A stretch of DNA of 64,000 nt from Burkholderiales bacterium 67-32. GTDB lineage: Bacteria > Pseudomonadota > Gammaproteobacteria > Burkholderiales > Burkholderiaceae_B. Positions 31,972 through 64,000 of the stretch are shown here, piece by piece (the stretch's first letter is position 1; every line of letters begins with the position of its first letter). The stretch is taken from contig MKUP01000013.1 of the NCBI GenBank assembly GCA_001898625.1, positions 62,001-126,000 of the forward strand, read 5' to 3'. The notes below the pieces were generated by a model. That model was not told the origin of the DNA. It was given only the letters and a program-made list of their open reading frames with translations, and ran no database searches. The position numbers were made by a program, and so were the translations under genes.

Positions 31972-32763
31972 TCAGAAAAGACCAGCAGGCTCTGCGTCCC
32001 TATCCCAGCTGTAAATGATCAGCTCTCGGCGATCCGCTGACTTGCCCCCACCCGCTACGGTGTAGGAGATATCCACATTCTCCATCTGGAAGCCTGCAAA
32101 CGCCGCTCGGATGTCAGGGTGGTCGTTCAGGCTCACCAGGGCCTTCCCCTTGATCGAGCGCAGTGTGCTGGCCATCAGCTCGTACTGCTCGAATGGAAAC
32201 GGGACACCATAGCCCTCGGTCTCCCAGTACGGCGGATCCAGGTAGAAGAAGGTATGAGCACGGTCGTAACGTTGGATGCAGGCTGCCCAGTCGAGCTGCT
32301 CGATGTAGGCGCTGGTCAAACGCAGATGAGCGGCGCTCAGATTCTCTTCAATGCGCAGCAGATTCACCGGGGGCGCGGTGGTGGCCGTGCCCCACGTCTG
32401 GCTTTCCACACGGCCACCGAAGGCATTGTGCTGCAAGTAGAAAAATCTGGCGGCCCGCTGGATATCGGTGAGAGTGGCCGGCACGGTCAGCTGCAGCCAC
32501 TTGAACATTTCGCGGCTGGACAATGCCCACTTGAACTGCCGGATGAACTCCTCCAAGTGGTGCTTCACCACCCTGTAGAGATTCACCAGGTCTCCGTTCA
32601 CATCGTTGATGACCTCGACCTCGGCGGGATGACGCAGGAAATACAGGGCGGCACCACCGGCAAACACCTCGACGTAGCAGGTATGCGGGGGGAACCGGGT
32701 AAGCAAAGTGTCGGCGAGGCGACGCTTGCCGCCGAGCCAGGGGATAATGGGTTGAGGGTTCAT
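31972..32763 (-). CDS. Phage Dam-type DNA adenine methylase
   Basis: A 263-residue D12-class N6-adenine methyltransferase. It has the N-terminal PIIPWLGGKRRLA, motif I VEVFAGGAALYF for S-adenosylmethionine, and motif IV FYLDPPYW for the target adenine. The order of motifs is that of GATC-type Dam enzymes. It is the last phage gene before the left end and is separated from the tail-tip gene by a hairpin. It may protect phage DNA from host restriction or alter methylation-controlled genes. The usual Mu Mom modification protein is absent here. Confidence 0.92.
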   Translation of the reverse strand: MNPQPIIPWLGGKRRLADTLLTRFPPHTCYVEVFAGGAALYFLRHPAEVEVINDVNGDLVNLYRVVKHHLEEFIRQFKWALSSREMFKWLQLTVPATLTDIQRAARFFYLQHNAFGGRVESQTWGTATTAPPVNLLRIEENLSAAHLRLTSAYIEQLDWAACIQRYDRAHTFFYLDPPYWETEGYGVPFPFEQYELMASTLRSIKGKALVSLNDHPDIRAAFAGFQMENVDISYTVAGGGKSADRRELIIYSWDRDAEPAGLF

Positions 32764-32866
32764 TTTGCAAGCCTATTTCGTGCGGTGAAACATTTCTGGT
32801 AGGCTTGGCTCGCTCTGTACAGGGTGGCGGGCCTCGCCTAGCTTGCAGCTTGCTCTGCAATCTGGG

Positions 32867-32900
32867 GACGCGACCAGGTGTTCCAGCACCTGGCCGCGTC
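32867..32900. terminator. Strong hairpin after the tail operon
   Basis: GACGCGACCAGGTG (32867-32880) and CACCTGGCCGCGTC (32887-32900) pair over 14 positions with a single A-C mismatch and a 6-base loop TTCCAG. It lies 10 bases beyond the tail-tip stop and about 100 bases before the Dam start. No clear T-run follows on either strand, so it may be a Rho-assisted terminator or an RNA-stability element. Confidence 0.6.
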
Positions 32901-32909
32901 GCCTGTCTT

Positions 32910-35900
32910 TCATACTGTGACTTCGAGCGTTCCGCCTTCGATCGCAACAGGGGTGCCCGCCGCCTTTGGCAGAACGTGGATGCTCAGTTGAGTGCCCGCG
33001 GGGTACGGTGGCAGCAGCAGCTCACGACCGGCCACAGTGATCGAGCCACTGATCGGCACCTGCTCGAAGGGACCGTGATTGGCAGAGACTGATACTTCAG
33101 CGCCGTACGCATTCTCCAGTTCCCACACCAGGACATAGCCACCGGCCGGACCGGAATCGAGGGCCAAATTGAAAGCCCGCGCGACTAGACCATCGTCGGC
33201 TGGGATGGCGGGGGGCACCTCCCAGCCATGCTCCAGCGGGTAGTACTCGTCGTACTCATCACGGGCGGTGAACCGCACTCGACCTCGCTCTGCTGGCTCC
33301 ATGCCCATGATGCGCACGCGCTTTCCCGGCGTGGCTGTAGGGCCCGCGAAGAGGGTCCAGTCCTCGGGCACCGACTTCGGAAAGGTGCTGGCCAGGTTCT
33401 TCGAGGCGAGCGTCATATCCAGTACGCCCGGTGCGTCGTCCACCGGCCATTCGCTGACCACGTCGAGGTCGTGGCTGCGGCCGGCCGGCGGCGTGCATTC
33501 CACGCTCAGCCAGGTATTGTTGGGCCGCCTGACCCAGATATAGAACCTGGCGTTGCCGGTGGAGTTCTCGACTGAGCACGACAGCGAGACCCGCCGAATC
33601 AGCCCTTCTTCGGCCACCAGGGCCACCAGGCGGCCGCTGTGCGCCCATTGGGTCAGGTCATGAGCTAGCGCGACCACGTCCCCACGTTGAACCAGCGCCG
33701 CCTCCCAGCCGCTTTGCCAGATGATGCGGCGCCGATGAAAGCACTTGGAGGCAGCCGCCAGATTCAACTGGCGTTGAGCCTGCGAGGCCGGCATCGCATA
33801 CTGCGCATTGCTGGATTTTTGGTTAACCGGCTGGGGCACTCCGGGCACGGCTGCGTAAACCGTATCGGCGGAATAGTCCGTGTCGCTATTGGTGAAGCCG
33901 AGAACATACTCGTCGATGGATTCATCCGTGTCGTAGCTGATCTGGAAGCTTCCGGCAATGATGTTGCCCATGCCGAAGGAGCCTACGGTGGGCTGCCCAG
34001 GCGCTTCCCACACGACTCCAAGCTTGCCAGTCGCCCAGGTCTTAGATGCGCGGCCAGCACCAGCGATGATGTCCAAGATCTCGCCGGTCGACATTTGCTC
34101 GGTGATCACCATCCGGCACTCGAGGTTATTGGCCTGACAAAAATGGCCCCAGGCGACGATGGCGGCGTAATCGATGCGATTGTTGCTCAGCCCTGCGCCG
34201 AAGAGCCGCGCCCCATTGGTGGGATCCGGCCGATCAAGCCAGCCTTGGCCGCCACCGAGATAGCCGGGGGTAACCGTGCTGTTGAGGAACCCCCCTCTGG
34301 CGTAGTAGAGGAACAGCCAGGCCGGATTCGTGGTGTGGCCCCACGTCCAGGGCGCAGCGGCATCGTCCGGAAACACACCAGGCGTCCAGGGCGCGGCGCT
34401 GTCCCAGATCCAGTGCTTCGCCCGTACGAACGCCGAGAGTCGGTCCAGGCGACCGCTGAGCTGCCCCGACGCCCGAATTAGCAGCGCGACACGCCGCTGT
34501 CCGGGGTACAGAGAGGGGTCGATGCGAAAGAACTTGATACGGGAGAGTTCGAGTTCGCTGATGTCGTTCGCTTCGGTAGGATCGGGCGTGGTGCGGCGAA
34601 CTCGCACGTCGTAATGGGCTGACTCGGGTAGAAAGTGTCGGAAGGTCTGGCGCACCGGCGTCGTGCTCCCGCTGGAGACAGAAACCGGGAACGGAAAATC
34701 CGTCCAATCAGCGGCGCCGACCTGACGGAACTGTGCACCGAAATCGCACGTGAGCGTCTCAATGCCCCCGCCGGCCGAGCGAAACAGACGCCCGGCGATG
34801 TCGAACTGGACGTAGTTGCAGCCTGCACCACTGCTGCGCCGTTCGATCCAGCCCTCATTGTCAACGCCTTCGTGTTGCTCGAGCTTACCGCCTTCGGCGA
34901 CCTGAACGTTGGTCGGAAAATCGTCTCCCACCCATCCGTCTGTCGTGTAACCCGTCAGGCGAGTGCGGTCGTACTGGCCAGGGGGCACGAAACTGTCGTG
35001 GCGCGACCAAGCCGAATACTGATCAATCGTAGTTGCGCCGATGCGCAGGTTCGTAACTTCGAGGTCACCGAAGCCCACGCTGAAAATGCTGCACAGCCGC
35101 TCAGAGTTGAACGTTTCGTAGTAGCCATATCCGATGACAATGTCTCGGTAGGTGCCTGGCGAGTACCAAGTGGGCACAGGCCCCAGCGTCTCGCCGCCGT
35201 TCTGCCAATTAATGTAGGCGTCGTACGGGGTGATCCGCTCATCGGGGATCGAGGGGTTGAACCGCGTCACAAAGGTGTGGGGCTGGGTTACCGTGCCCCC
35301 GACCCTCTCGTATTGTCGCTCCTGTCCATCCCCGTAGTAGCCATACCCGAAGCCATCGGGCGGCATCAGCTCAACCCAAGGCGCCTCTGGTGCGCCGGAT
35401 ACAGCATCCCAGACGAAGGGGATAGCGGTTTTCGACTCGTACCGCGGCGTGTTGTTTACTACCAGGTGTGTGGTGCTCGGGTCAGGCACATTTTCGGACC
35501 AAGGGCGAGACGCATAGTCCGGAAAAACCTGATGTTCCCCGAGCACTACCATGAGCGGACTGTACGGCCGGACCTGATTGCCCCCTCCCTCCAGAGAATA
35601 GTTGGACGGATCGTTTCTTGCCGTAGCGGCTGTCGCACGCTTGGGGCCGAACAGGGCTTGAGCGACAAAAGACAGGGCGAGGCCGATGGCCAGATTTACC
35701 GCAACTGTCACAGCGAACTGGATGGCGGCGGCTGTGGCCGCGGTCTTCCCCGCCGCCAGCGCGGCGGCCCCGGCCGCCTCGCCGACCCCCGTGCCCATGA
35801 CGGCCTGGCGCAACACCAGGACATCCGTCGTGTGAACACGCGATCGCTTCCAGCGGCGCCGAGGCACCGAACGGCCATTCAGCGTCGCCTCAAGCGGGGT

Positions 35901-36062
35901 AGCCTGCAGCGCCAAGCGCCGCACTAGGCTGTCGATAGTGTCGCTGCCTGTACCCAATACCCGCTTGACGATACGCTGGCTGGCAGGCAGCAGCGGGTTG
36001 GGCAAATAGATGACCTCGAGCGCAGCGGCCTTACAGCCACGCGTAATAGCCTTGGACGACAT
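32910..36062 (-). CDS. Tail tip / host specificity protein (TipJ-like)
   Basis: A 1050-residue central tail-fibre protein of the lambda J / TipJ type that forms the tail tip and recognises the host. The start has a basic segment RRRWKRSRVHTTDVLVLRQA. A hydrophobic stretch at residues 95-138 (Ala/Leu-rich, including AVNLAIGLALSFVAQALFG) is the membrane-like segment usual in this family. Fibronectin-like beta-rich sequence follows, and the C-terminus ends in a small domain TPVAIEGGTLEVTV. It overlaps the NlpC/P60 gene by 32 bases and is the last gene of the tail operon. Confidence 0.88.
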   Translation of the reverse strand: MSSKAITRGCKAAALEVIYLPNPLLPASQRIVKRVLGTGSDTIDSLVRRLALQATPLEATLNGRSVPRRRWKRSRVHTTDVLVLRQAVMGTGVGEAAGAAALAAGKTAATAAAIQFAVTVAVNLAIGLALSFVAQALFGPKRATAATARNDPSNYSLEGGGNQVRPYSPLMVVLGEHQVFPDYASRPWSENVPDPSTTHLVVNNTPRYESKTAIPFVWDAVSGAPEAPWVELMPPDGFGYGYYGDGQERQYERVGGTVTQPHTFVTRFNPSIPDERITPYDAYINWQNGGETLGPVPTWYSPGTYRDIVIGYGYYETFNSERLCSIFSVGFGDLEVTNLRIGATTIDQYSAWSRHDSFVPPGQYDRTRLTGYTTDGWVGDDFPTNVQVAEGGKLEQHEGVDNEGWIERRSSGAGCNYVQFDIAGRLFRSAGGGIETLTCDFGAQFRQVGAADWTDFPFPVSVSSGSTTPVRQTFRHFLPESAHYDVRVRRTTPDPTEANDISELELSRIKFFRIDPSLYPGQRRVALLIRASGQLSGRLDRLSAFVRAKHWIWDSAAPWTPGVFPDDAAAPWTWGHTTNPAWLFLYYARGGFLNSTVTPGYLGGGQGWLDRPDPTNGARLFGAGLSNNRIDYAAIVAWGHFCQANNLECRMVITEQMSTGEILDIIAGAGRASKTWATGKLGVVWEAPGQPTVGSFGMGNIIAGSFQISYDTDESIDEYVLGFTNSDTDYSADTVYAAVPGVPQPVNQKSSNAQYAMPASQAQRQLNLAAASKCFHRRRIIWQSGWEAALVQRGDVVALAHDLTQWAHSGRLVALVAEEGLIRRVSLSCSVENSTGNARFYIWVRRPNNTWLSVECTPPAGRSHDLDVVSEWPVDDAPGVLDMTLASKNLASTFPKSVPEDWTLFAGPTATPGKRVRIMGMEPAERGRVRFTARDEYDEYYPLEHGWEVPPAIPADDGLVARAFNLALDSGPAGGYVLVWELENAYGAEVSVSANHGPFEQVPISGSITVAGRELLLPPYPAGTQLSIHVLPKAAGTPVAIEGGTLEVTV

Positions 36063-36405
36063 ATCTGGTACTCAAACGGTTGACGGGCTCCAATACCGAC
36101 GCACCGAACCAATCGTCGCTGTGGAGAATGTAGCCCTGCGCGATCGCGCAATACAGGCCGATATGTGCCGCGCGGCCACGGGCGAGGATCAGCACGCCAG
36201 CGCCATCAAAAGGTGCCGCCACGGGCGTGGCGTAGTCTTTCGCACTGCGGGTGATCAGGCGGGCACGGTGCAGCAGGCTGTCTGACTGCTTGCGCGGGAA
36301 AGTGACTTCGCGGCCGAATACCTCGCGCAGCACTTTCTCGACCAGCTCCCCGCAGTCGAGCTGGTCGTGAGGGATGTCGACGTACCGTTCAGCCCAGTGC
36401 GCCAT
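36031..36405 (-). CDS. NlpC/P60-type tail peptidase
   Basis: A 124-residue cysteine peptidase domain of tail-assembly type (lambda K-like without the Mov34 part). The nucleophile C18 lies in QLDCGELVEKVL and the histidine H81 in RGRAAHIGLYC. It probably cuts peptidoglycan locally during DNA entry. It precedes the tail-tip gene, as in siphophages, and overlaps both neighbours (1 base upstream, 32 bases downstream). Confidence 0.85.
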   Translation of the reverse strand: MAHWAERYVDIPHDQLDCGELVEKVLREVFGREVTFPRKQSDSLLHRARLITRSAKDYATPVAAPFDGAGVLILARGRAAHIGLYCAIAQGYILHSDDWFGASVLEPVNRLSTRYVVQGYYAWL

Positions 36406-36881
36406 CAGAAAAGCCCCGCCGCAGTCTCCGGCCGGAACGTGTACGGCGTGCCAGGTTGATTGAGCACGTCGTCGTAGCCCAGATCTGCGGTGACGGTTGG
36501 CGAAGCCACCACCACATTGCGCATATCGAGAGTGATGTCGTCTTCAATAAAGTCAGGAACGCTTCGCAGGATCTGGCGCAACGTCAGCACGGCGCCACGC
36601 CCACCGTGCGTGCGTTCCAGGAACGCAGAGATATCGCCGCCCAGTGTGTCGATCGCCAGCTGCGCGCGCGGCGTCGTACGGTCCTGATCGGATGGAAGCT
36701 TGATTGAGAAGCCGCAGGAAACGTAGTTCTGGCCGTTGCTGACGATATCCTGGGCGTCGGCGACGAAACGTAGGGGTGCCTCTGCCAGCGCGTGCGAGAT
36801 TTCCAGTAGAAAAATCGGAACCTCATCCGCCGCCAACGCGAGTGCGTTCTCAGTGAAGCGTGTTGATTTCGGACGCGCCAT
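36405..36881 (-). CDS. DUF1833-like tail protein
   Basis: A 158-residue protein with the pattern of the phage DUF1833 family: FLLEISHALAEAPLRFVADA near the start, VSCGFSIKLPSDQD, and IPFIEDD-like VPDFIEDDITLDMRNVVV. The family sits between the tape measure and the NlpC/P60 genes and is thought to belong to the distal tail hub (comparable in place to lambda L). ATG 36881 is favoured because it gives the conserved start, and it leaves one base between genes. Confidence 0.75.
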   Translation of the reverse strand: MARPKSTRFTENALALAADEVPIFLLEISHALAEAPLRFVADAQDIVSNGQNYVSCGFSIKLPSDQDRTTPRAQLAIDTLGGDISAFLERTHGGRGAVLTLRQILRSVPDFIEDDITLDMRNVVVASPTVTADLGYDDVLNQPGTPYTFRPETAAGLF

Positions 36882-36882
36882 C

Positions 36883-37245
36883 TCAGCCCCAGTACTCGAT
36901 AGTGAAGGCGACGGTCCATTCGTCAAAGCGATCGGTCAGCGGGGTGTAGTCGACCTTGCCTTGTTCGATGCGGGCACGGCGCTCGACGTGGTAGACCGGG
37001 TCATACCACTGGAACCACAGTGCACCGAAACGCAAGTCGCTCACCCTCCAGGTTTCGAACGCGAGCTGCTCGGCCAACGTGTGCAGCCGGTATCGGACTG
37101 GTGAGCGATATCGCTGGCGCGAGTTGATCGGGTCCTGCTTGATGTAGCCGTCCTCGAATTCGGTGCGATCGATATTGGTGACAGGGTCGATCTGGTAGTC
37201 GTCGAGAAGGAACTCTGCATAGTCTGGGAACACCGGATATGCCAT
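36883..37245 (-). CDS. Minor tail protein (lambda M position)
   Basis: A 120-residue protein beginning MAYPVFPDYAEFLLDDYQID, with a central ETWRVSDLRFGALWFQWYDP and ending VAFTIEYWG. Families in this place (directly after the tape measure, before DUF1833) are minor tail proteins of the lambda M type. The TWxV...WYDP...W pattern supports that. It starts one base after the tape-measure stop. Confidence 0.7.
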   Translation of the reverse strand: MAYPVFPDYAEFLLDDYQIDPVTNIDRTEFEDGYIKQDPINSRQRYRSPVRYRLHTLAEQLAFETWRVSDLRFGALWFQWYDPVYHVERRARIEQGKVDYTPLTDRFDEWTVAFTIEYWG

Positions 37246-37246
37246 G

Positions 37247-40200
37247 TCAGGCTCCGCCGCGGTTGAAAACGGACGGCATGGCTTGGCTGATTGGCCCGCC
37301 GCGCTCGAAGTCTTCCAAGATCAGCGAAACAACCAAGTCGCGGCCCTGGAGTTCCTCACTGCGCTTGGTTACGCGCTGCGGCGTTCCCTGGTAGATGGTG
37401 TTGATGATGACGTTGGGCATGACCAGAGCCGCCTGGGAGCCCTGAGATGCAGCGCCACCGTCGGCAAATCGGGCGATCGATCGCGATGCCTGCACGAGAC
37501 CACCAAACGCGAACTTGGGTCGTGGGAACCGCAGCGCCCGAATCGACTCCATGAATTGGCGGCCGTAATGTCGGACCGCGCGTGCGGGCTGCACGAACTC
37601 GTTGTCAGACAGCATGGCCGGGATGCTGTCGCTGGTTTCAGTGCCTGGGCCACGGATATGGCCACCGTCCGCTGCGAACATGACCGAATTGCCGACAGCC
37701 GGAGCGACTGTCGGCGTCGAGGGCACAGACGTGCCTCCGCCGCCGAAAAGCGCACCGCCCACAGCGCTGAAGAGCGAACTCCAGAAGCCACCGCCGCTGC
37801 CGCCACCGACGTCAACCGAGAAGGCACGAATGATCGCCTCTCTTACGCCGGACGAGACGATGTCGCCGGCCAGGCGGGTGAAGACGTTCTTGATCGCCTG
37901 ACCGGCATTCTCCCAGTTCGCCACAGCATTGCCGGCGGCGCTGGAGAACCCGTCAATCAGGTTGTTCTTGACCATTGCGCCGGCATCGACGATCACCGGA
38001 GTTGTGGTCTTGACTTGGTTGCCCAGCTCGACGATCGCGGCATTGGCATCGTCGAGCGCCTTGGCCGCGTCCTGGGGAAGCGCGCCGCGCAGCTCCCGCA
38101 GTTTGGCAAGGATGGCTTCCAGCGCCGGAATCTGTGCTTGACGCGCCGTGCGGATGCGGGCTTCGCCCTCGAGTTGGCTGATTTGGCCGCTCTGCACCTC
38201 GGCGTTGACAGACGCCTCCTGCGCCGCCAGATCCCGCTGAATTCTCTGTGCTTCAGCCAGCTTCGCGTTGAACTCTGCCTGGGCCACACCAGCCTGGACC
38301 AGCATATCAATGCGCTCACGATCCGCCTTCGCTTGCGCGGGATCGCTGCTGGCGCCAGCCAACCGATAGTCATCGCGGAACCGATCCAGCAGTTGGCGTT
38401 CGACTGCGCCTCGGTCGAACACTCCAGTCAGGTCTGCAACCTGCACTCGAATATTCGCGCTGATCGTTGAAAGTCGCTGCTCGGTATCTCGCTTCCAATT
38501 ATCCAGCGTCCGCGTTGCATCGGCCAACGACGCATCCAGAAGCTGCCTGTCAGCGATGATCTGGATCTTGCGCTGCTGGAGCGGGGCACGTTCCCCAGGT
38601 GTTCGCGCCTGTGCAATCGCCGCGGTGACAGCCGCCAGTTGCTGGTCGAGGAACTTGCGTTGTTCCTCGGTCTCGGTCTGCATCTGTGACAGCCGCGCGT
38701 CGTAAGCTGCCTGGATGCTGACGTTACCCTCCGTCACGGCCTGGACGATGATGGCGTCGCCGGATTTGATGGAGGCCTGCAGCAGCCGCAGGGAAGCCTC
38801 GCTCTGAGCAGCTCGCACCTGCTGGGTGGCTTTGGCCGCCTCCAGGCCGATGTTGGTCCCCGACCGCGCTGCGCGCTCAGTCGCGCGCTTCAGCGCTTCG
38901 TCATACTCGGATTGTGTGATCGAGCCGAAGTCGAGCGCCTGCTTGAGCTTTGCCTTTTCTTCGGTGAGCTTTTCGGCACCCGTTTTCATCGAGTCCGTGT
39001 AGGACTTGAACCAGGTCTCGAGATCCTTCTTTTCGCGTTTGCGCTGGGCTTCCCGAGATTCCTCGGCCGCCTTCGCGCTTTCCTGCTCGGCGGCGGCCTG
39101 ACGTTCGGTGAGTTGGGCGTTCGCGGCAGCCAGTTGCGCCTGCAGGCGGCCAAGCGCCAGGCCAGACTCCTCGCGTTGCTTGATCTGAGCCGCCAGGGTA
39201 TCGACCACCTGCTGCTGCTCAGCGACCAGTTCAGCTGGAGTTTTTTTCCTCCCGACATCCCAGATCGCGTTCCAGGCCTTTCCCGCGGCCTGCGCCAGTG
39301 AATCCCAGGCGCGCTGCAGCGTTCCGAGATTTTGCGCAAACGCGCCGCCCATGTGATCAGCGAAAGCTTTGGAAACCAGCAGCCTGGCATCCTCAACCCG
39401 CCCCTGCTCGACCAGCTGTCGCAAGTACTTCTGCTGCTCAAGCGTCAGAAAGTTGAACTGCTTGTCGAGCTGCTCGGCCGCCCTGGCGGGGTCGACAAAG
39501 AGCTTTGCCAGAGAAGAGCCGGCCGCATCGGTCGACTGGCCGGTGACCGCGGCGTAGGTTTTTACCGACTTGGTCAGGTTCTCGATCGTCCCCATGCCAA
39601 TCTGGCCGGTCTGCACCATGCCGGAGACCATCGACCGAGCCGCCGCCAGACTCAACTCTGAAGCCTCGGCCGTGGCAGCGGCCAGGCTTTCGACTTGGCT
39701 GCGCGTGGCGCCCGCATAGTTGCCTGTCGTCTGGACGGCGAGGTTGTACTGCTGGGTGTCGCGCTCCGCGTCGGCCAGCATTTTCACAACAGCCAGGCCG
39801 GCGACCGCCAGGCCGGCCAAGCCGACGCGTACGGGAGTGATCAGCGTCGCCAAGGCGCGGAAGGTGGCGCCGACACCACCGAACGAATCCTTGATCTGCC
39901 CGCCCTGCTGTATCGCCACCAGCCAAATGGGCATTCCGCTGGCCACGCTGGTCGTGATGTCGGTGATTTGCGCCGGCAGCATACGCATCGCCGCAGCGGT
40001 CTGCTTCGCCGATATACCTCCGGCAGCCACTACCGCATTGGCATTTCGCTGGGAAGTCGCCGCCGCTTGGCTCGATGCAGCCAGAGCTTGGTTCTGCCGG
40101 GTGGCCTCTGCGACAGCGGTGTTCAATGTGCGCATCGACGCGGCGGTCGTCTGGGCAGCTTCGCTCTGCGCGCGTTGCGCAGCGGCTGCTTGCGTGCTTG

Positions 40201-40342: not shown

Positions 40343-40348
40343 AAGTGG

Positions 40349-40573
40349 TCAAAAATCGTTGATGCGGGATCCTTGAGAGGCGAGCATGGTCGCCTCCAGT
40401 TGCTGGGTCTTCTCGTGCCCTATGGCGCGGAGATAGCCTCGGAGTTCGGCAAGGGAGTAATGTCGGATTCGCTCAGGCTGGTGGCCGGCGCTGATGAGCT
40501 GCTGAACGATGAGAAACCAGTCGGGCTGCCCATCATCAGCTTCTGCAGCGTCGGCTGGATCTGGGTAAAAAAA
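40349..40573 (-). CDS. -1 frameshift extension of the tail chaperone (T-like domain)
   Basis: After the run of seven T residues on the minus strand (plus-strand 40567-40573), the -1 frame is open to a stop at 40349. It reads FFYPDPADAAEADDGQPDWF, followed by LIVQQLISAGHQPERIRHYS and AELRGYLRAIGHEKTQQLEA, ending GSRINDF. This is the conserved C-terminal segment of tail assembly chaperone T partners and has no start codon of its own. Its stop lies six bases before the tape-measure start. The zero-frame tail after the slip site is low-complexity, which favours the -1 frame as the conserved one. Confidence 0.82.
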   Translation of the reverse strand, partial: FFYPDPADAAEADDGQPDWFLIVQQLISAGHQPERIRHYSLAELRGYLRAIGHEKTQQLEATMLASQGSRINDF

Positions 40574-40908: not shown

Positions 40909-40916
40909 GGTTTTCC

Positions 40917-56125: not shown

Positions 56126-57877
56126 TTACTGGTCGCCCACCACGCGCAAGGTCGCGCGCACGGTCAGGCGGTGCTTGAGATCGGGGATTGCAGATTCGGG
56201 CACGCCGTCGGGATACCAGGCAGCGATCTGCGCGTTTCGTTCGACGGTGAGCTCGACGCCTAGGCGGCGTAGCTCGCTGGCCGCTTCGAATCGCGTCAGA
56301 ATGCGGTCTTGGGTATGGACGCCTGCGCCGGCCTCGAGCGCTGTACCGCGCTTGGGTAGCCAAGTCGTCGCCGGCACCTGGTCGAGATCCTTGTAGGGGT
56401 CGATTTGCCCGCCGAAAGGGATAGCCTTGGCCTTGCGCGCGGCCTTCGCCGCTTCTACCGAATCGGCGCCTGTGGCTACAGCTTCGGCGGCGCGACGGTT
56501 CGTGTCAGCTCGTGTAGCCTTGGGGCGCTTGTACTCTTGGGTGATCACCGCAGCATCGGCGAAGAATCCGCTGACGTCATCGCGGGTGACATGTGGGATC
56601 TCGATCAGGACTTCGCGGCCATCTGCAGCGCGCTCAACCACGTAGGCGGCATCGGCCCGATACGGGTTGTAGGTGACCAGAACCTTTTCGCCGACCATGA
56701 CATTGGGCACAGCCTGCACGCTCCATGTCTTGCCGGAGAACTCCACATGCAGGAACCCATCCACCTTACGGGTTGCCGGTTCGTGGGTTAGCAGCTCGCG
56801 ACACAGGTCGGGGCCCGGCGCCAGCCGCAACTGAGCCTGGGTGATCGTCTGCCAGACCTCATAGCGGGATTTGCCGTGGCGGGAGTGCCGCTGCGTGCTG
56901 TTGAACCAGCGCATCCATCGCTGGGCTTGGCTGTTGAGGTATTCGATGCCAGGCACATGGGCAAATTTGAACTTGTGCTCGAAACTGGTCTCGACGATGT
57001 TGTGCGCGTTCTCGACCTGCCCCTTGGCGCGTGGGTTGCCCGCTTCGTTGACGATCAGATCCATCTGCAAACGGCGTGCCAGATTCTTGAATGCGCCAGC
57101 GGTGCCCGCACTGCCAGGGTCCAGCATCAGATTCAACGGCACGCCGTGGAACGGTTGGCCCGAGCGCTGCTGAATCGCCTGCAGGAACGATTCCGCCATG
57201 TTGGCCGTGGACTCGCCACCGGCCACGTAGTGCACGAAAATCGTGCCGCTAAAATGATCCGTCAGCACATAACGAGTGAGGCGCTGCCGTGCGATTTTGA
57301 CGAAATTGGCAGGCTTGTTCTTGTAGAACTCGGCCGGCGACATGTCGGCCAGACCGTCCTGTGGCACATAAAATAATGTGGAAATCGATGCGTCGATCTG
57401 CCACACATGGTTCGGATGCAGGCTGGCGAGCGACGTTGCCGGGGTCGGCGCGCGCAACTGATCGGGGTGCAAGCCTGCAGCTCGCAATGCGCGGATGCAC
57501 GCAGATTCGCTAAGCTGGCGGACCTCGCCGGTGGCCGGGTCGATCCATTCGGCCTGAATGGCGCCATTGGCGCGCAGTTCGCGCAGCGCGTCCTTCACAG
57601 ACAGGATCTTCTTGTTGTTGGCCCGGTAGCCTTCCATCAAGTATGCGGAGAGCAGATGGGCTTCGTCGATGTTCAGGCGCGCACTCCCTGCGTCGGCGCG
57701 GCGTTTGCGCTCGGGTGTCACGGCGACCTCCTTCAGGTAGCGCATCAGGGTAGGAAGGGATACGCCCAGGTGCGCCATCGCGGCGTCGTAGATGGGTTGC
57801 TTCTGCCCATGTCCGGCGGCGCGGGCACGGGCATGGACTTCGACCAGGTACTCAACGGTGGCGGGCGAAAGGCGCAT
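56126..57877 (-). CDS. DDE transposase (MuA-like)
   Basis: A 583-residue transposase. The N-terminus has a helix-turn-helix region (MAHLGVSLPTLMRYLKEV). The rve catalytic domain carries VWQIDASIST (D162), MLDPGSAGTA (D253) and GQVENAHNIVE (E289), the complete DDE triad. A beta-barrel Mu-C-like domain follows, and the C-terminal part is lysine/arginine-rich. ATG 57877 has AGGAG upstream. The enzyme would cut the phage ends and join them to target DNA. It is of the B3/BcepMu type more than of the Mu A type. Confidence 0.93.
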   Translation of the reverse strand: MRLSPATVEYLVEVHARARAAGHGQKQPIYDAAMAHLGVSLPTLMRYLKEVAVTPERKRRADAGSARLNIDEAHLLSAYLMEGYRANNKKILSVKDALRELRANGAIQAEWIDPATGEVRQLSESACIRALRAAGLHPDQLRAPTPATSLASLHPNHVWQIDASISTLFYVPQDGLADMSPAEFYKNKPANFVKIARQRLTRYVLTDHFSGTIFVHYVAGGESTANMAESFLQAIQQRSGQPFHGVPLNLMLDPGSAGTAGAFKNLARRLQMDLIVNEAGNPRAKGQVENAHNIVETSFEHKFKFAHVPGIEYLNSQAQRWMRWFNSTQRHSRHGKSRYEVWQTITQAQLRLAPGPDLCRELLTHEPATRKVDGFLHVEFSGKTWSVQAVPNVMVGEKVLVTYNPYRADAAYVVERAADGREVLIEIPHVTRDDVSGFFADAAVITQEYKRPKATRADTNRRAAEAVATGADSVEAAKAARKAKAIPFGGQIDPYKDLDQVPATTWLPKRGTALEAGAGVHTQDRILTRFEAASELRRLGVELTVERNAQIAAWYPDGVPESAIPDLKHRLTVRATLRVVGDQ

Positions 57878-57896
57878 GGGTGCTGGTGCTCCTGGC

Positions 57897-58820
57897 TCAG
57901 CCCTCGGTGCCCGACTCGTCGGGCGACCAGCCAGCGTCAGTGGGGGAGTCAGGCAGGCCGAACTCGCCACGCAGGCGGTTGAGCGTGTCCTGCAGCATGG
58001 CCGCGATGCCCGCCATGAAGGCCGTGCTATCGCCGCCTTGCTGCTCGTGGTGGTCTGCGATCGCGACGAATCCCTGCCGCAGATGGCCTTCGATCTGAGC
58101 GGCCGCGGCATGCCCCAGCGAGGTTGTTTCCTTGAGCAGTTCGCCCAGCACTTCATCGGGCGGAACCGTCTTGATACGCCGGTTCTTCTTGCGCAGCTCG
58201 TCCAACTGCCCGTTCTTGTCGGCCAGCAACTGCTCGGCGGCCTCTTTCTCAGCACGCTCTTCACGCAGCGCGGCCCGCAGTTCCTTGACGGACATCGTGG
58301 CGATGTCGTCGAGCTTCAGTTCGCCGGTTTGGCCGGTCAGTTCCAGTTCCTCTATCTGTTCGTCGTCGAGGACGAGCATTTCAAACAACTTGGTCTGGTT
58401 GCCCGCAGCCAGCAAAAGCGGCGTTGACGACGCATTTGCGAACTTGACGGCAGTCGCCATGAACTTCTGTGCCACTCGAGGCTCGAGTCCCAACGTTTCG
58501 AGGCGGGGCAGGAACTGTCCGTGGGGGCACGCTTCCTTGAGTACACGCAGACCCCGGCCTACTTCGAGGCACGCCTCGACGCTGCGTCGCATGTTGGCCG
58601 CGATATCGCGCTGGATCAGATCCGGATCGATGCTGTCAGCTGGCAGGCTGTATCCCAGCTGCTCCGCGACGGCCCTTACCATCGACTCCTGCTGGGCGTT
58701 CGCCAGGGCGAGCTGCTTGGCTTCGGAGCGCATGCTATCCATTGCCCCGTCCACCCGTTCTTGGTCGAGAACGATGTCCTCTACGACTTCCGCACTGCGC
58801 GGTTTACGGCCTTTTGTCAT
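57897..58820 (-). CDS. DUF3102-like early phage protein
   Basis: A 307-residue protein. The central SVEACLEVGRGLRVLKEACP and HGQFLPRLETLGLEPRVAQK sequences match the DUF3102 pattern found in mobile elements (a ParB-KorB-like helical fold). A coiled coil at about 185-225 (LREERAEKEAAEQLLADKN) follows. The role is unknown. It precedes the transposase gene by 19 bases, as in B3-like phages. Confidence 0.75.
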   Translation of the reverse strand: MTKGRKPRSAEVVEDIVLDQERVDGAMDSMRSEAKQLALANAQQESMVRAVAEQLGYSLPADSIDPDLIQRDIAANMRRSVEACLEVGRGLRVLKEACPHGQFLPRLETLGLEPRVAQKFMATAVKFANASSTPLLLAAGNQTKLFEMLVLDDEQIEELELTGQTGELKLDDIATMSVKELRAALREERAEKEAAEQLLADKNGQLDELRKKNRRIKTVPPDEVLGELLKETTSLGHAAAAQIEGHLRQGFVAIADHHEQQGGDSTAFMAGIAAMLQDTLNRLRGEFGLPDSPTDAGWSPDESGTEG

Positions 58821-58831
58821 GTTCTGATCTC

Positions 58832-59146
58832 TCAGTCAGCGTTACGGGAAAAACGAGCGCGGGCATCTGCCAACCTGCGCTCGGCGCGATCGATTGACGT
58901 CCAGACCTTGATGGCTTGTTGGGGAAGCCGTGCTGTCAGGCGCCAAACGCCTGCTTCCTCATCGCGCTCGGCGAAGCCGGCGGTTCGAAGGTTGTCCAAG
59001 TCGCGAATGGCATTGGGAGCCGAACAATCGGCTGCCTTTGCCACCTGGGTGACCGTCAGGCCGTTCACCACATCGGAGAACAGAGCCAAGATCACCCGAA
59101 GTAGGCGCTGCTGGGCTTGGTTGGTGTAGTCAGTCTTTCGGCTCAT
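58832..59146 (-). CDS. Small winged-helix regulator
   Basis: A 104-residue protein beginning MSRKTDYTNQAQQRLLRVIL. The helix-turn-helix is GLTVTQVAKAADCSAPNAIR, with a wing near AERDEEAGVWRLTARLPQQ. This MarR/IclR-like fold is common in early regions. It probably binds the phage early control region. The 69-base gap upstream contains CTCAC and GTGAG arms separated by five bases (59190-59204). Confidence 0.75.
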   Translation of the reverse strand: MSRKTDYTNQAQQRLLRVILALFSDVVNGLTVTQVAKAADCSAPNAIRDLDNLRTAGFAERDEEAGVWRLTARLPQQAIKVWTSIDRAERRLADARARFSRNAD

Positions 59147-59496: not shown

Positions 59497-60174
59497 ATGG
59501 AGCCTGAGCTGGACTTCGACCAGGTCATAGGCAGGGCAAAAACGGCTTTTGGGGTGAAGACGGACGCGGAGCTATGCGAGCTGATCGGCTTCAGCACTAG
59601 CCGTTTCGCCAATAGAAAGCGGACGGGCTCTATCCCGTATGCCGAACTGATCGCGGTGGCGGCCGAGCGGAAGGTGAGCTTGGATGTTGTTTTTTTTCAC
59701 GATCCACCTTTACAAGTTAAGTCGCGCGACGGCGTGAAAAGCACACCGGGAGCCGAGGAAGACCTAGTGCCAATCCCGCACTACGATGCAATCGGATCGT
59801 GCGGCCACGGCAGTTGGATCGAATCAGCCAGGGTGATCGAGATCGTTCCCGTGGCGAGAAGCTGGTTGCTCCGCGAAGGGCTCGTCCCTGAACAGACGGT
59901 TATCATCGGCTCGCGGGGCAATTCGATGTACCCAGTAATCAAGAGCGGTGAACGATTGATGCTGGACCGATCGAAGACGGATCCTTCTCTTGGAGGCATA
60001 TTCGCGTTCGTGTATCAGGGTGAGATGTCGATCAAGTACCTGCAACGCCTGAATGGCGGGCTGCAGATAAGCAGTGAAGACTCGGTAAGTTTCCCAGCGC
60101 GCTACTTTCCCGAAGAGGAAGCGAAGGACATCGTGATTGAAGGTCAGGTCAGAATAGGAATCTCACGGCTATGA
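59497..60174 (+). CDS. CI-like phage repressor with S24 peptidase
   Basis: A 225-residue repressor. The N-terminal DNA-binding part has TDAELCELIGFSTSRFANRK. The C-terminal LexA/S24 domain has S143 in RGNSMYPVIKSGE and K180 in EMSIKYLQRL. The likely self-cleavage site is C102-G103 in GSCGHGS, a Cys-Gly bond as in UmuD. AGGTGA lies six bases before the ATG. RecA-stimulated cleavage would induce the prophage. Its stop overlaps the lipoprotein start by four bases. Confidence 0.92.
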   Translation: MEPELDFDQVIGRAKTAFGVKTDAELCELIGFSTSRFANRKRTGSIPYAELIAVAAERKVSLDVVFFHDPPLQVKSRDGVKSTPGAEEDLVPIPHYDAIGSCGHGSWIESARVIEIVPVARSWLLREGLVPEQTVIIGSRGNSMYPVIKSGERLMLDRSKTDPSLGGIFAFVYQGEMSIKYLQRLNGGLQISSEDSVSFPARYFPEEEAKDIVIEGQVRIGISRL

Positions 60175-60596: not shown

Positions 60597-60600
60597 AGAG

Positions 60601-60612
60601 TAAAGCCCTTTA
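60601..60612 (+). promoter_or_regulatory. Right late-operon activator box TAAAGCCCTTTA
   Basis: Lies five bases beyond the lipoprotein stop and 59 bases before the endolysin start. It is followed by CTT, giving the same TAAAGCSCTTTACT as the left late box, with one change in the palindrome centre. The distance to each first gene is similar. Likely Mor-responsive. Confidence 0.65.
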
Positions 60613-60635
60613 CTTAGTCCTCTCACGCGCGCGCG

Positions 60636-60671: not shown

Positions 60672-61235
60672 ATGCGCACAATCAATCGAATCGTCCTTCA
60701 TTGCTCGGCGACGAAGAACGGCAAATCGCTGTCGCCGACGCAATCCCCCGCTGCCGTCATCGACGGCTGGCACAAGGAACGCGGCTTCCGTCGCGACCCT
60801 TCCGCAGTCTCCCGCTTCAATCCCGAACTGCCGTCGATCGGTTACCACTTCGTCGTCGACCTCGACGGGCACGTCCATACGGGTCGAGCAATCGCTGAAG
60901 TGGGAGCGCACGTCGCAGGCTACAACAGCGATTCGATCGGGATATGCCTGATCGGCTACGACAAGTTCACCGTCTCCCAATGGGATGCGGCCGCGCAGCT
61001 GGTCACCGCACTTGCAGATCAGTTTCAGGTCCCGCTGGCATTCGCCAATGTCGCGCAAAACGCCAAGGCTCGCGGCGTACTCGGTCACCGCGACTTCTCT
61101 CCCGATAAGAACGGCAACGGTCGCATCGAACCGTTTGAATGGTTGAAGACGTGTCCGGGCTTCTCGGTGGAGTCCTGGTTCAAGGGCGGCATGCTGCCGA
61201 TCGCATCCAGCCTGCTGGAGCGTCTCGATGCGTAA
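60672..61235 (+). CDS. Endolysin: N-acetylmuramoyl-L-alanine amidase with EF-hand-like loop
   Basis: A 187-residue amidase_2 (T7 lysozyme/PGRP) enzyme that cleaves the amide bond between muramic acid and the peptide. Zinc ligands are H10 (RIVLHCSAT), H139 (GVLGHRDFS) and C161 (LKTCPGF), and Y58 lies in SIGYHFVV. Residues 145-156 form DKNGNGRIEPFE, a perfect EF-hand-type calcium loop between two zinc ligands. There is no signal peptide, so it needs the holin. It is the first gene of the right late block. Confidence 0.92.
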   Translation: MRTINRIVLHCSATKNGKSLSPTQSPAAVIDGWHKERGFRRDPSAVSRFNPELPSIGYHFVVDLDGHVHTGRAIAEVGAHVAGYNSDSIGICLIGYDKFTVSQWDAAAQLVTALADQFQVPLAFANVAQNAKARGVLGHRDFSPDKNGNGRIEPFEWLKTCPGFSVESWFKGGMLPIASSLLERLDA

Positions 61236-61503
61236 CTCCAAAGCGTGGATGATCGCGGCCGCGTTGGGCGTGGGCCTAGCTTTCGGGGCAACCCCTGCCG
61301 AGACCAAAACTGCGCCAGTGCAACGCATCACGCCGCGCGTCGAAGCCAAGCGCCGCCGGTTGGTGGGCAGCCAATGGGGGTCGGTGTTCTTCACCAAGCG
61401 CGGCCCTGGCTGGACCGCCGCACATGTGCAGCGCATGGCACGCAAGCACCGCAATCAATTGCGACACAAACGCGCCGTGCGGCGCGCGAGGTGCCGCCCA
61501 TGA
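61228..61503 (+). CDS. Small basic exported protein of the lysis cassette
   Basis: A 91-residue protein beginning MRNSKAWMIAAALGVGLAFG, a signal-like hydrophobic segment. A very basic rest follows (VEAKRRRLVGSQWGSVFFTK, AARKHRNQLRHKRAVRRA-like). No family recognised. Its start overlaps the amidase stop by eight bases and its stop overlaps the holin start. Could be an anti-holin-like or pilot protein. Confidence 0.6.
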   Translation: MRNSKAWMIAAALGVGLAFGATPAETKTAPVQRITPRVEAKRRRLVGSQWGSVFFTKRGPGWTAAHVQRMARKHRNQLRHKRAVRRARCRP

Positions 61504-61730
61504 AGCTGATCGACAACTGGCACCGCTGCTGGCGGCTGACCAGCGTACAGGCGGCGGTCGTGCTGGCCCTGCTATCCCTCATACAGGCAGAAGTACTGCC
61601 CCTGTTCCAGTTCGCCATTTCGCCGCGCGTTTGGCCGTGGCTGACGGGTTGCCTTGGCCTGGTCATCGTCATCCTACGCGTCATTGCGCAGCCCGGCGCG
61701 CTGGATCCGCGCGAAAGGAGGCGCTCATGA
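61500..61730 (+). CDS. Holin-like membrane protein
   Basis: A 76-residue protein beginning MKLIDNWHRCWRLTSVQAAV, with two hydrophobic helices (VQAAVVLALLSLIQAEVLPL, WPWLTGCLGLVIVILRVIA) and a basic end DPRERRRS. This fits a class II-type holin. The pattern NWHRCWRLTSVQ is common in Mu-like lysis cassettes (DUF7940-like). It overlaps both neighbours by four bases. Confidence 0.75.
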   Translation: MKLIDNWHRCWRLTSVQAAVVLALLSLIQAEVLPLFQFAISPRVWPWLTGCLGLVIVILRVIAQPGALDPRERRRS

Positions 61731-62281
61731 TCGGCGACTTCATCAAGCGGTGGGAATGGCTGCTCTGGATCCTGCTGATAGCAGTCGCCGCTTTGGGGGC
61801 TCGGCTCGGCTACGAGGCGATTCAGGAAAGCGGGCGAGCGGAGGTGCGAGCCGAGTGGCAGCAAGAAAAGGACCGCCAAGCCGCTGCAGCGAAGGAACAA
61901 CAGGCCGAGCGAGAGCGGGCAGCTCGTGCCGAAGATTCCTCCCGCGCAACCGAAGCCGAAAGGATCGCCAATGAACAAGCCGAACGTGAAGAGGCTGACA
62001 AGGCTCGCGCTGCCGCTACTGCTGCTCGCGAGCGCAGCCTGCTCAACACCATCGCCGCCCTCAACCAACGCGCTGCTGAGCTGTCCAGCGGCGCCGAGGA
62101 TCCCCGCGTTGCCGCCTTCGCTCGCGAAGCGACCACCGCCCGTGGACTACTCGGCGAATGCACAGCTCGATATCGAGCTGTGGCAGACGACGCTAATCAA
62201 CTCCGCGGCCAAGTGATCGGCTTGCTCGACTTCGACAGAAACGCCGTGCGTGACGCGGCCGCAATTGGGGCAGCGGAATGA
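61727..62281 (+). CDS. Inner-membrane spanin (Rz-like)
   Basis: A 184-residue protein with one N-terminal membrane helix (WLLWILLIAVAALGARLGY) and a long periplasmic coiled coil rich in Gln, Ala, Glu and Arg. This is the i-spanin that helps fuse the inner and outer membrane in the last step of lysis. The ATG overlaps the holin stop. The Rz1 partner gene is fully embedded in another frame. Length is a little above lambda Rz. Confidence 0.85.
   Translation: MIGDFIKRWEWLLWILLIAVAALGARLGYEAIQESGRAEVRAEWQQEKDRQAAAAKEQQAERERAARAEDSSRATEAERIANEQAEREEADKARAAATAARERSLLNTIAALNQRAAELSSGAEDPRVAAFAREATTARGLLGECTARYRAVADDANQLRGQVIGLLDFDRNAVRDAAAIGAAE
61971..62216 (+). CDS. Outer-membrane spanin lipoprotein (Rz1-like), nested in Rz
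   Basis: An 81-residue lipoprotein in another frame inside Rz. It begins MNKPNVKRLTRLALPLLLLA with the lipobox SAAC and then a Pro-rich segment (CSTPSPPSTNALLSCPAAPR, IPALPPSLAKRPPPVDYSAN). Basic start, hydrophobic core, Cys and Pro-rich linker are the marks of o-spanins. Fully embedded like lambda Rz1. Confidence 0.82.
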   Translation: MNKPNVKRLTRLALPLLLLASAACSTPSPPSTNALLSCPAAPRIPALPPSLAKRPPPVDYSANAQLDIELWQTTLINSAAK

Positions 62282-62625
62282 TCATCGGAATGGAAGAAGT
62301 GAAGTTTGCTGTGCTGCTCTTCAGCAGCGTCGGTCTGCCTCTGGCCTCCATCGCGTACACGTGGGTCGCTACGCGCGACAAAGACAACACCGCCCATATC
62401 AAGGCGGTCGAGGCCACGATGGCGGAAGCGCTCGCCAAGCATGCCAGTCGGCTAGACAGCCTGGAGACCACCGTTCGTTACCTGCCGGCACCGGAGAAAT
62501 TCGCCGAGCTGCAGGGCGACATGAAGGCAGTGAAGGCGAACCAGGAATCGACCCAACGCGAGATGCACGGCGTTCGTAGCTCGCTCACCCGCATCGAGAA
62601 TTTTCTGTTGAGCCAAAAGCAATGA
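62278..62625 (+). CDS. Mu gp25-like membrane protein (DUF2730)
   Basis: A 115-residue protein with one N-terminal membrane segment (FAVLLFSSVGLPLASIAYTW) and a coiled coil (AEALAKHASRLDSLETTVRY). This is the DUF2730 pattern (Mu gp25), next to terminase genes in Mu-like phages. Role unknown. It overlaps the Rz stop by four bases. Confidence 0.85.
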   Translation: MIIGMEEVKFAVLLFSSVGLPLASIAYTWVATRDKDNTAHIKAVEATMAEALAKHASRLDSLETTVRYLPAPEKFAELQGDMKAVKANQESTQREMHGVRSSLTRIENFLLSQKQ

Positions 62626-62924
62626 GCACTCCCTACGAAGCCATTCAAACCGAAGACCGGCGCCTGGTCGTTCTGCGCAGTCTGAAGGAAAGCGGCGGCT
62701 ACAAGGCCAGCGAATACGTGCTGCTGCAGCTGCTGGAGTACTGGGGGCATGCAGTCGCAACAGACCGGCTGCGGACGGATCTGGCGTGGCTGGCCGAGCA
62801 GGGGCTGGTGACCGTTGCCGACGTTGCTGGTGTCCAGGTCGCCACGCTCACCGGCCGCGGACTGGACGTGTCTCTGGGGCGAGCCGTGCAGCCGGGCGTG
62901 AAGCGCCCGATGCCGGGGGCTTGA
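62622..62924 (+). CDS. Small winged-helix protein (gp26-like)
   Basis: A 100-residue protein beginning MSTPYEAIQTEDRRLVVLRS, with LLQLLEYWGHAVATDRLRTD and LAWLAEQGLV. A winged-helix repressor-like fold, found next to the small terminase in Mu-like phages. Overlaps the previous stop by four bases. Confidence 0.8.
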   Translation: MSTPYEAIQTEDRRLVVLRSLKESGGYKASEYVLLQLLEYWGHAVATDRLRTDLAWLAEQGLVTVADVAGVQVATLTGRGLDVSLGRAVQPGVKRPMPGA

Positions 62925-62925
62925 A

Positions 62926-63462
62926 ATGGCACGCCGGTCCAGCATCGAGCGGCTCGACCCCGCTATTCGAGACGCCTGCAATGAACTGATTCGTTCGGGG
63001 CACACGATCGATGAGATCGTCCAGACGCTACGCGACCTGGGAGCCAACGTCTCGCGGTCGGCCGTCGGCCGCTTTACGAAGTCGGCCCGCGCGTCGATGG
63101 AGAAATTCCGCGAGGCACAGGAAGTCGCCAAGGTTTGGATCGACAAGCTCGAAAGCGAGCCCAACGGAGACGTTGCGCGGCTGCTGCCGGAGATGCTGCG
63201 CGCCGTCGCGTTCCAGACGCTGTCGACGATGGGGGAATCGGAGAGTCCCGTCGAGAGCCAGGAGCTGATGTTCCTGGCGAAGGCATTGAAGGACGTGTCC
63301 GGGGCCTCGAAGCTCAACATGGATATCGAGCTGAAGCTGCGCCAGGAGCGCGAAAAGGCCAAGGTGGAATCGGCCGACGCAGTAGAGAAAGCCGCGCGCG
63401 CCCAGGGCATGGATGAAGACCAAGTCATGTTCTGGCGTCAGCAGGTGCTGGGGCTGAAATGA
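62926..63462 (+). CDS. Small terminase-like protein (Mu gp27, DUF3486)
   Basis: A 178-residue protein with a helix-turn-helix at the start (DEIVQTLRDLGANVSRSAVG), SSIERLDPAIRDACNELIRS, and a late helical part (QEREKAKVESADAVEKAAR). This is the DUF3486 family (Mu gp27), which acts as the small terminase. It begins one base after the previous stop and overlaps the large terminase start. Confidence 0.9.
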   Translation: MARRSSIERLDPAIRDACNELIRSGHTIDEIVQTLRDLGANVSRSAVGRFTKSARASMEKFREAQEVAKVWIDKLESEPNGDVARLLPEMLRAVAFQTLSTMGESESPVESQELMFLAKALKDVSGASKLNMDIELKLRQEREKAKVESADAVEKAARAQGMDEDQVMFWRQQVLGLK

Positions 63463-64000
63463 CCGCCAAGCTCAAGCCGCGTTCCGACACCCAACGTATC
63501 GTCGAGTGGGACGAGCTGCCGCCCTCGGTGAAGGAGATTCCCGAGGGGTTAAATCCGCTCGACGAAGGCGTGCTGATGAAGCACCAGCGTGACTGGCTCG
63601 AGCTGACCGGCCAGGCCGACCTGGCGGTTGCGGGTAAAGGGCGCCGAACCGGCATCACGTTCGCCGAGGCACTCGGCGACACGCTGATCGCCGCGGCGCG
63701 GAAGTCGGCCGGTGGTGACAATGTCTACTACATCGGCGACACGAAGGAGAAAGGCCTCGAGTTCATCGGGTACAGCGCCCATTTTTCGCGTGTGATCGCA
63801 CGCGCTCAGGCGTTCGGCATCAGCGATATCGAAGAGTTCCTGTTCGACGATCAGCAGGACGACGGCACCACGCGCAAGATCACCGCGTACCGGATCCGAT
63901 TCGCATCGAGCTTCGTCATCACGGCGCTTTCGTCGCGCCCAGCTAACATTCGCGGCCTGCAGGGCATTGTGGTGCTGGACGAAGCCGCCTTTCATCCGAA
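63459..64000 (+). CDS. Large terminase subunit (Mu gp28-like), partial
   Basis: The first 180 codons of the packaging ATPase, running off the right edge. The start MTAKLKPRSDTQRIVEWDEL leads to the Walker A-like AGKGRRTGIT (about residues 58-67) and Walker B IVVLDEAAFHP (from residue 170). The nuclease half is outside. Portal and further head genes are expected next. Confidence 0.92.
   Translation, partial: MTAKLKPRSDTQRIVEWDELPPSVKEIPEGLNPLDEGVLMKHQRDWLELTGQADLAVAGKGRRTGITFAEALGDTLIAAARKSAGGDNVYYIGDTKEKGLEFIGYSAHFSRVIARAQAFGISDIEEFLFDDQQDDGTTRKITAYRIRFASSFVITALSSRPANIRGLQGIVVLDEAAFHP

Follow-up and report, generated by a model that had tools for sequence, protein, structure and literature searches.

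Gene content, ends and target site of the prophage

The stretch of DNA analyzed here (the window) comprises 64,000 nucleotides of Burkholderiales bacterium 67-32, i.e. bases 62001–126000 of a 291,909-base pair (bp) contig (MKUP01000013.1). In it lies a Mu-like transposable prophage whose late genes form two divergent blocks around the early region. Its length is 38,242 bp, from position 31887 to position 70128, i.e. to 6,128 bases past the window end; positions above 64000 continue the window numbering. Gene calls are from PHROG and Pfam scans of both strands.

31881–31886: target duplication GGCGGG, first copy (second copy right after 70128)
31887–31940, plus strand: R-type prophage end (TGAAGCGCGCCGCGATATTTGCGA...), resembling the R ends of B3 and RcapMu
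31972–32763, minus: Dam-type DNA adenine methyltransferase (phrog_56, 1.7e-87; PF02086)
32910–36062, minus: central tail protein, J-like (phrog_31, 1.4e-55)
36031–36926, minus: two minor tail proteins (phrog_329, phrog_396)
37247–40342, minus: tape measure protein (phrog_24, 4.4e-104)
40917–45266, minus: protein of 1449 amino acids (aa) in the tail block (best PHROG matches of unknown function; no Pfam match)
45250–46984, minus: two tandem major tail proteins, Ig-like domain (phrog_807 twice)
46899–48226, minus: neck, head-tail adaptor and head scaffold/decoration genes (phrog_209, phrog_195, phrog_673)
49095–50054, minus: major capsid protein (phrog_1005, 5.3e-71)
50098–51216, minus: head maturation protease/scaffold, Mu I/Z-like (phrog_976, 4.8e-100; no Pfam match)
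51251–51264, minus: proposed late box of the protease-to-tail operon, TAAAGCGCTTTACT, ending 34 bp before the protease start
51431–51847, minus: Mor-family transcription activator, proposed reader of the late boxes (PF08765, 5.7e-21)
51840–52313, minus: GemA (PF06252)
53414–54196, minus: Mu Gam-like end protection protein (PHROG/Pfam scans)
54929–56113, minus: transposition ATPase B (phrog_296, 1.4e-64)
56126–58264, minus: transposase A, B3 type (phrog_310, 9.9e-108; Pfam rve only below cutoff); its open frame may start further in
57897–58820, minus: conserved early gene, at the position of the DUF3102 gene in the B3 record
58832–59146, minus: ner-like regulator (phrog_1368)
59497–60174, plus: CI-like repressor (phrog_4)
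60601–60614, plus: TAAAGCCCTTTACT, late box proposed for the lysis-packaging operon, 57 bp ahead of the endolysin
60672–61235, plus: amidase endolysin (PHROG/Pfam scans)
61424–62281, plus: Rz-like spanin (PHROG scan)
62278–62924, plus: gp25/gp27-like small genes (phrog_736, phrog_436, families of unknown function)
62926–63462, plus: small terminase (PHROG scan)
63459–65087, plus: large terminase, running past the window end at 64000
65080–66603, beyond the window: Mu portal
67171–67509, beyond the window: gp49/66-like gene
68061–69380, beyond the window: F-like head gene
69377–70000, beyond the window: G/neck gene
70128: L-type end, beside gpG

Read from the L end, gpG, gpF, the portal, the terminase, the lysis genes and the repressor are directed towards L; ner, A, B, GemA, Mor, the protease, the capsid, the tail genes and Dam follow, directed towards R. 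The original prediction had described a leftward block in the window (ner, transposase, ATPase, GemA and Mor, then protease/scaffold, capsid, tail and Dam) and a rightward block (repressor, lysis genes, gp25/gp27-like proteins and large terminase), and the PHROG/Pfam matches confirm both. As a check it had proposed to look past position 64000 for portal and gp30-like genes ending at a phage right end. There the portal, the F-like gene, the G/neck gene and the end at 70128 are found, followed by the remainder of a host gene.

Markers of transposable phages are present, i.e. transposase A with ATPase B, GemA, Mor and Mu-type head genes, together with TGAAG ends and a 6-bp target duplication as in Mu/B3-type phages. 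A 6-bp repeat is described as the footprint of B3/Tn552-family transposases (PMC8705779). A search for TG...CA with equal 5- or 6-bp flanks, in which positions 31700–31980 were compared with 69990–70500, returned a single pair, 31887 and 70128, with GGCGGG flanks. As judged by eye, the tail/Dam-side end (TGAAGCGCGCCGCGATATTT) is similar to the right ends of B3 (TGTAGCGCGGCGCGAAATTT) and RcapMu, and the gpG-side end (TGAAGGGGGGTGAGATAAAT) to the left ends of these phages. PHROG scans gave no match to a tail sheath among the window proteins scanned; the tail is of the J/tape-measure type.

One set of ends and a single target duplication indicate one Mu-like phage with two divergent late blocks around its early region, as had been proposed. 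Such a split phage could be mimicked by two prophages, adjacent or fused, or by what is left after a deletion, and shortened copies do exist in the group, e.g. a related locus, L035 (L numbers denote loci of relatives), in which the portal is directly before GemA. For the window this explanation is extremely improbable. When 26 phage-gene profiles were run over positions 1–79000 (the window plus 15 kilobases, kb), each profiled head and packaging gene was present in a single copy, the sole double being the tandem major tail protein, and no second head set was found up to position 79000. One 6-bp duplication surrounds the whole element, the host frame rejoins, and the same order recurs in many clusters of relatives; on the ends, the target duplication and the recurrence the two-prophage reading was ruled out. 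A phage end between the protease and Mor (positions 51217–51430) would have separated two prophages, but none was found there; this stretch contains a late-promoter-like dyad.

A contig in IMG/VR (L012; 8,338 bp, 100% identical), which may stem from the same sample, covers the region from transposase A to the capsid. Since it spans the Mor–protease junction, the junction is not an assembly error of the window contig alone. Related contigs also carry it, and thus an assembly artefact is unlikely.

When the two flanks are joined, a single host frame re-opens across the insertion site. The interrupted gene (31443–31886, then 70129 onwards, where host sequence resumes) encodes a SARP/AAA-type regulator, about 1,260–1,300 aa in relatives. 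A protein search matched it in nine of 11 genomes of the genus: it is uninterrupted in five (G190, G192, G195, G196 and G197; 79%–97% identity), three others match at 44%–58%, and in the window's own genome it is split in two pieces. As the prophage interrupts this gene, the function of the regulator has probably been lost.

Relation of the layout to B3, Mu and KS10

Taken as a whole, the locus is quite likely to be a complete transposable prophage of the B3/Mu family in the layout of Burkholderia phage KS10, which differs from the B3 order by a single inversion and in which Mor would activate both late arms.

In the order of Pseudomonas phage B3, likewise read from L, Mor to A and ner are directed towards L, and the repressor, lysis genes, terminase, portal, F and G, then the protease, capsid and tail genes, towards R. 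Inverting the L-side half once, from Mor to gpG, converts this order to that of the window, and the change presumably took this direction. The L end and Mor flank one breakpoint; G and the protease promoter flank the other. Each lies between transcription units, at the boundaries of the lysis-packaging and structural units; end polarity is kept, and the protease-tail operon is still beside R.

In phages of the BcepMu type, lysis, terminase, capsid and tail genes run together in one direction. The original prediction was that the lysis-terminase part had come to stand alone on the other side of the switch. Its location there is correct; judged by the ends, however, it is the whole L-side half that is inverted relative to B3, rather than this part alone having moved. 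The ends explain the divided head module as one simple inversion relative to B3.

The same end polarity is displayed by ten relatives that have a 6-bp duplication of their own (L028, L032, L037, L039, L043, L086, L089, L116, L120 and L132). In these and in the window the L-type end is the one nearer gpG, and the R-type end the one nearer the tail genes. Three controls with the B3 order (L042, L049 and L119) have the R-type end beside the tail genes and the L-side end beyond Mor. The search of relatives also met chance duplications at TG sites, and the pair with the L-type motif was chosen; the L-side ends of L120 and L042 fit this motif loosely, and for the other records at least one of the two ends was missed.

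The breakpoints themselves give no hint of a cause, which weighs against the inversion. At the window breakpoints the best inverted 18-base match is 14, compared with 12–13 in five shuffles, in G+C-rich sequence, and in Stenotrophomonas phage phiSHP3 and in B3 the matches are not above shuffled sequence. Inverted repeats as the cause of the inversion were therefore dropped.

The order may instead have come from that of Mu by moving or inverting the lysis-packaging block alone, or the B3 order may derive from the window order. Early genes run towards R in the Mu order, as they do in the window, and in L047 the lysis-packaging genes are on the L side yet point rightward, which shows that this block can turn by itself. 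The transposase, on the other hand, is of the B3 type, and one inversion is enough from the B3 order and not from the Mu order. Either of these derivations is possible but rather unlikely.

A further explanation is that the block is a programmed reversible switch, still flipping in living phages. The layout does change 2 to 8 times on gene trees, and the capsid protein of L062 (B3 order) is almost the same as that of L028/L020 (KS10 order). The early genes of this pair differ strongly (transposase identity to the window is 32% for L062 and 57% for L020), and thus module exchange explains the capsid similarity. No match to an invertase family was found among the window proteins in the PHROG/Pfam scans. 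As no inverted repeats mark the breakpoints, an active switch is very unlikely.

The layout, for which inversion of the B3 order remains the preferred origin, is not new. A tblastn search of the protease against 50,697 phage records led, from the matches listed (60 of 64), to KS10 (NC_011216; Goudie et al. 2008) and Curvibacter phage TJ1 (MH766655), whose annotated records carry the window order. The earlier caution that relatives with this layout might already be described was thus justified. In KS10, F, portal, terminase, lysis genes and repressor are leftward, and early genes, GemA, Mor, protease, capsid and tail rightward, with the L-type and R-type ends on the same sides as in the window (judged by eye). 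KS10 forms plaques; thus the layout is viable, and the phage of the window may be viable also. The KS10 paper places the capsid genes ~11 kb apart, notes that the first ~17 kb appears inverted relative to Mu, and calls the divided head module unique to its authors' knowledge, leaving the reason open (PMC2628397). KS10-like phages of B. thailandensis were reported in 2026 (PMC12860723).

Unlike the window, KS10 has contractile-tail genes (sheath), a distant transposase, portal and protease, a MuG-like gene annotated in the tail-side block, and a weak shared late box. TJ1 shows a clear shared dyad at both late operons; it also differs from the window by contractile-tail genes and is distant in sequence. 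KS10 and TJ1 pair away from the window's relatives in the transposase, portal and protease trees (100 support each). The Mor tree does not group the two together, which counts against the main interpretation. The gene trees and the lack of a sheath match set the window apart from the KS10 lineage, while its layout is of the KS10 type, i.e. two divergent arms with the L end beside F/G. The prophage is a siphovirus-type representative of the known KS10 layout.

In gene content the window resembles B3 and Stenotrophomonas phages phiSHP3 and Bhz63, which have much the same gene set, a B3-type transposase and siphovirus tail genes. The L and R ends of B3 match those of the window, and its protease-tail block is also beside R. 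These phages differ from the window in that the L-side half is opposite, Mor is next to the L end and gpG next to the protease. The gene order is thus not that of the B3 genus (Beetrevirus), and nucleotide similarity does not place the window there either, as megablast of positions 31887–51216 yielded only five Escherichia phage records, matched by a 66–69-base piece of a tape measure gene. The nearest capsid protein among named phage records has 35% identity.

A separated TerS-TerL-Portal block is also described for the TG1 transposable prophages of Leptospira (PMC8705779). The comparison is by description only, and for these prophages, unlike the window, no Mor/C genes are reported. In the open-access literature a siphovirus-type version of the layout, its end polarity and a shared late box were not found. 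Useful additions made here concern the polarity of the ends, how widely the layout occurs, and the shared boxes linked to Mor.

Proposed shared late boxes and Mor as their probable reader

A dyad of the TAAAGCGCTTTA type is found upstream of both late operons of the window. Sites with two or fewer mismatches are present in the 64 kb only at these two boxes (the second site spans 60599–60614), giving four strand matches with 0.14 expected.

The protease and lysis upstream regions were compared, in the same orientation, in 37 non-redundant phages having both. Controls were 185 pairs from different phages, 185 shuffled pairs and 37 pairs with one region reversed. At least 16 of 18 bases are common to the two regions in 17/37 phages, compared with 6/185 (different phages), 0/185 (shuffled) and 2/37 (reversed). 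With a criterion of 15/16 bases the values, in the same order, are 12/37 versus 5/185, 0/185 and 1/37, and with 13/14 bases 15/37 versus 14/185, 3/185 and 6/37. The element is also present in B3-order and Mu-order isolates, i.e. phiSHP3, Bhz63 and the Mu-order phage RR1-B, which has 18/18 common bases.

The box sequence covaries with Mor. In 19 of 35 phages, those with a shared element, box similarity and Mor identity, with capsid identity held constant, give a partial rank correlation of 0.29 (1 of 2000 permutations as high), while the reverse partial (capsid identity given Mor) is −0.01 (1048 of 2000). As the similarity of the element follows Mor and not capsid identity, Mor is the likely reader of both boxes, and from these sequence comparisons it probably drives both late arms. 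On induction, the early operon from ner would produce Mor. Mor would bind the dyad in front of each late operon, lysis-packaging and protease-tail alike, and both would be switched on together. Gene order and direction would then be immaterial for expression, and relatives could thus tolerate several orders.

Separate late promoters have been described in known phages. In Mu the lys and I promoters are separate, and C activates each of them (PMC4461284). For the B3-type phage Fc02, the lysis-packaging and structural clusters are reported to be transcribed separately from, and after, an early operon that ends with mor (PMC9936078). The Mor-linked shared box is a testable explanation for the synchrony of the two late arms.

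Several observations weigh against Mor as the common activator. At the 18-base threshold 20 of the 37 phages, including the window, are without a shared element, and the window pair is a 14-base dyad with one difference. The upstream regions of KS10 have at best 13/14, 13/16 or 13/18 common bases. The dyad of TJ1 has 15/18 common bases in the same orientation and 17/18 with one region reversed, as a palindrome may, and Pasteurella phage AFS-2018a has no shared element in its two upstream regions. Among the 19 elements behind the correlation, four or more (L069, L086, L032 and L119) are not dyad-like and were kept, and phiSHP3 and Bhz63, which are near-identical isolates, entered the count separately.

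The late arms could also be coordinated by another regulator, e.g. the DksA/TraR-like gp7, which the KS10 authors proposed as the coordinating protein (PMC2628397), or the protease-tail arm could be fed mainly by read-through from the early operon. The early operon runs straight into this arm, and read-through is possible given the short distance from Mor to the protease (across 78 loci the median gap is 126 bp, and it is 247 bp or less in 54 of them). Against both stands the phage-specific element before both operons in many phages, including phiSHP3, Bhz63 and RR1-B, an element which follows Mor; these alternatives are unlikely.

A sigma-70 consensus scan near the switch gave one match with 2.2 expected, and Rfam gave zero matches for positions 31800–64000. 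The annotated protease start (51200–51225 in the window) has a GCGGCATG context, as it also does in phiSHP3, Bhz63, B3 and L062, and a ribosome site is not obvious. The protease may be translated from a nearly leaderless mRNA, or its true start may be further in.

Distribution of the layout and exchange of modules

A capsid profile was built from seven proteins (the window, four relatives with the same layout and two with packaging genes before the protease). It detected 27 loci in genome contigs, and in viral contigs the best 80 of 125 were used. At the junction of early genes and protease the genome contigs show the window layout in 24 of 27, packaging genes before the protease in 2, and 1 could not be told. 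The values for the 80 viral contigs are 55, 7 and 18. The capsid loci and 16 loci from a protease search, with a nearly full capsid gene, were clustered at 95% nucleotide identity. Among the 73 clusters, 54 have the window layout (these include L047 and L051, whose far arms differ), 8 have packaging genes before the protease (7 with the window's capsid type), 10 could not be told, and in one the early genes as well as the packaging genes are upstream on a single strand. The ratio of layouts is not an unbiased frequency.

A portal match is present in 44 of 46 longer records. In 38 of the 44 it is opposite to the capsid strand; for two of these, L033 and L073, the portal match is partial and located where the contig ends. 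The other six have it on the capsid strand, i.e. L042, L049, L097 and L119 (B3 type), L047 and L051. The whole arm from G to gp27 is divergent in 32 of 33 fully mapped records, among which three phages occur twice, once in each of two collections. The full B3 order is found, among the relatives with packaging genes before the protease, in L042, L049, L062 and L119; in L061 and L097 the early genes are leftward as in B3, and Mor is not reached.

The layout is thus common among siphovirus-type prophage relatives. It recurs in prophages mostly of Betaproteobacteria and in the window's lineage. By their record titles, the named hosts are mostly Burkholderiales and Rhodocyclales, and many of the relatives' records are metagenome bins. 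Tools that expect one cluster of head genes may misjudge such phages.

The layout as a clade marker was dropped. The layout changes needed on gene trees are 7 for the capsid, 8 for TerL, 6 for the protease, 5 for portal, F and head-tail adaptor, 4 for transposase, GemA and ner, 3 for B and 2 for Mor. These trees, of 45–50 rows, are quick builds with several long branches, and the branch of the capsid picked for B3 (8.84) is abnormal. The several changes indicate that modules were exchanged between phages of different layout. For example, the transposases of L043 (window layout) and L097 (B3 type) are sisters with full support, and so are their B proteins. As the trees are mosaic, the number of order changes cannot be counted from one tree, a further point against the main interpretation.

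The early (repressor/ner to Mor) and lysis-packaging (lysis to gpG) modules could be freely permutable cassettes on the L side, beside a fixed protease-tail block, with permutation allowed by a Mor-family activator that reads a phage-specific palindrome before each late cassette. This generalization is about as likely as not. Four of eight signed orders are seen, i.e. those of Mu/RcapMu, B3, KS10/window and L047 (all cassettes rightward). If true, regulator and boxes would co-evolve, and gene order would be released from selection.

L047, from a metagenome-assembled genome of Zoogloeaceae, shows a fourth order: lysis to gpG, ner to Mor, and protease-tail are on one strand and the repressor alone is reversed. 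Its portal is at G282:C121:39436–40905, the transposase at 28231–29979 and the capsid near 23837, all on the minus strand; an R-type end was not found in this locus. In L051, lysis genes, TerS and TerL are straight after the major tail gene, and portal, F and G before the repressor. In L035 terminase and transposase are not between the portal and GemA. L051 and L035 are possibly misassembled or decayed copies.

The tandem duplication of the major tail gene is also found in L042, L046/L110, L115–L117, L119, L120, L122 and L132. The F-like head protein of the prophage itself (68061–69380, beyond the window) has a PBECR2 nuclease-like domain at its C-terminus.

Ten of the 78 gaps between Mor and protease hold 1.5–5.2 kb of cargo. 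In L103 and L040 this encodes large proteins with weak lectin-like Laminin_G_3 matches below cutoff. In L123 (5450–8470) a diversity-generating retroelement is present between Mor and the protease. It displays a 114-base repeat pair (6705–6818 and 7267–7380), in which 12 of 13 differences are at template adenines, followed by a reverse transcriptase.

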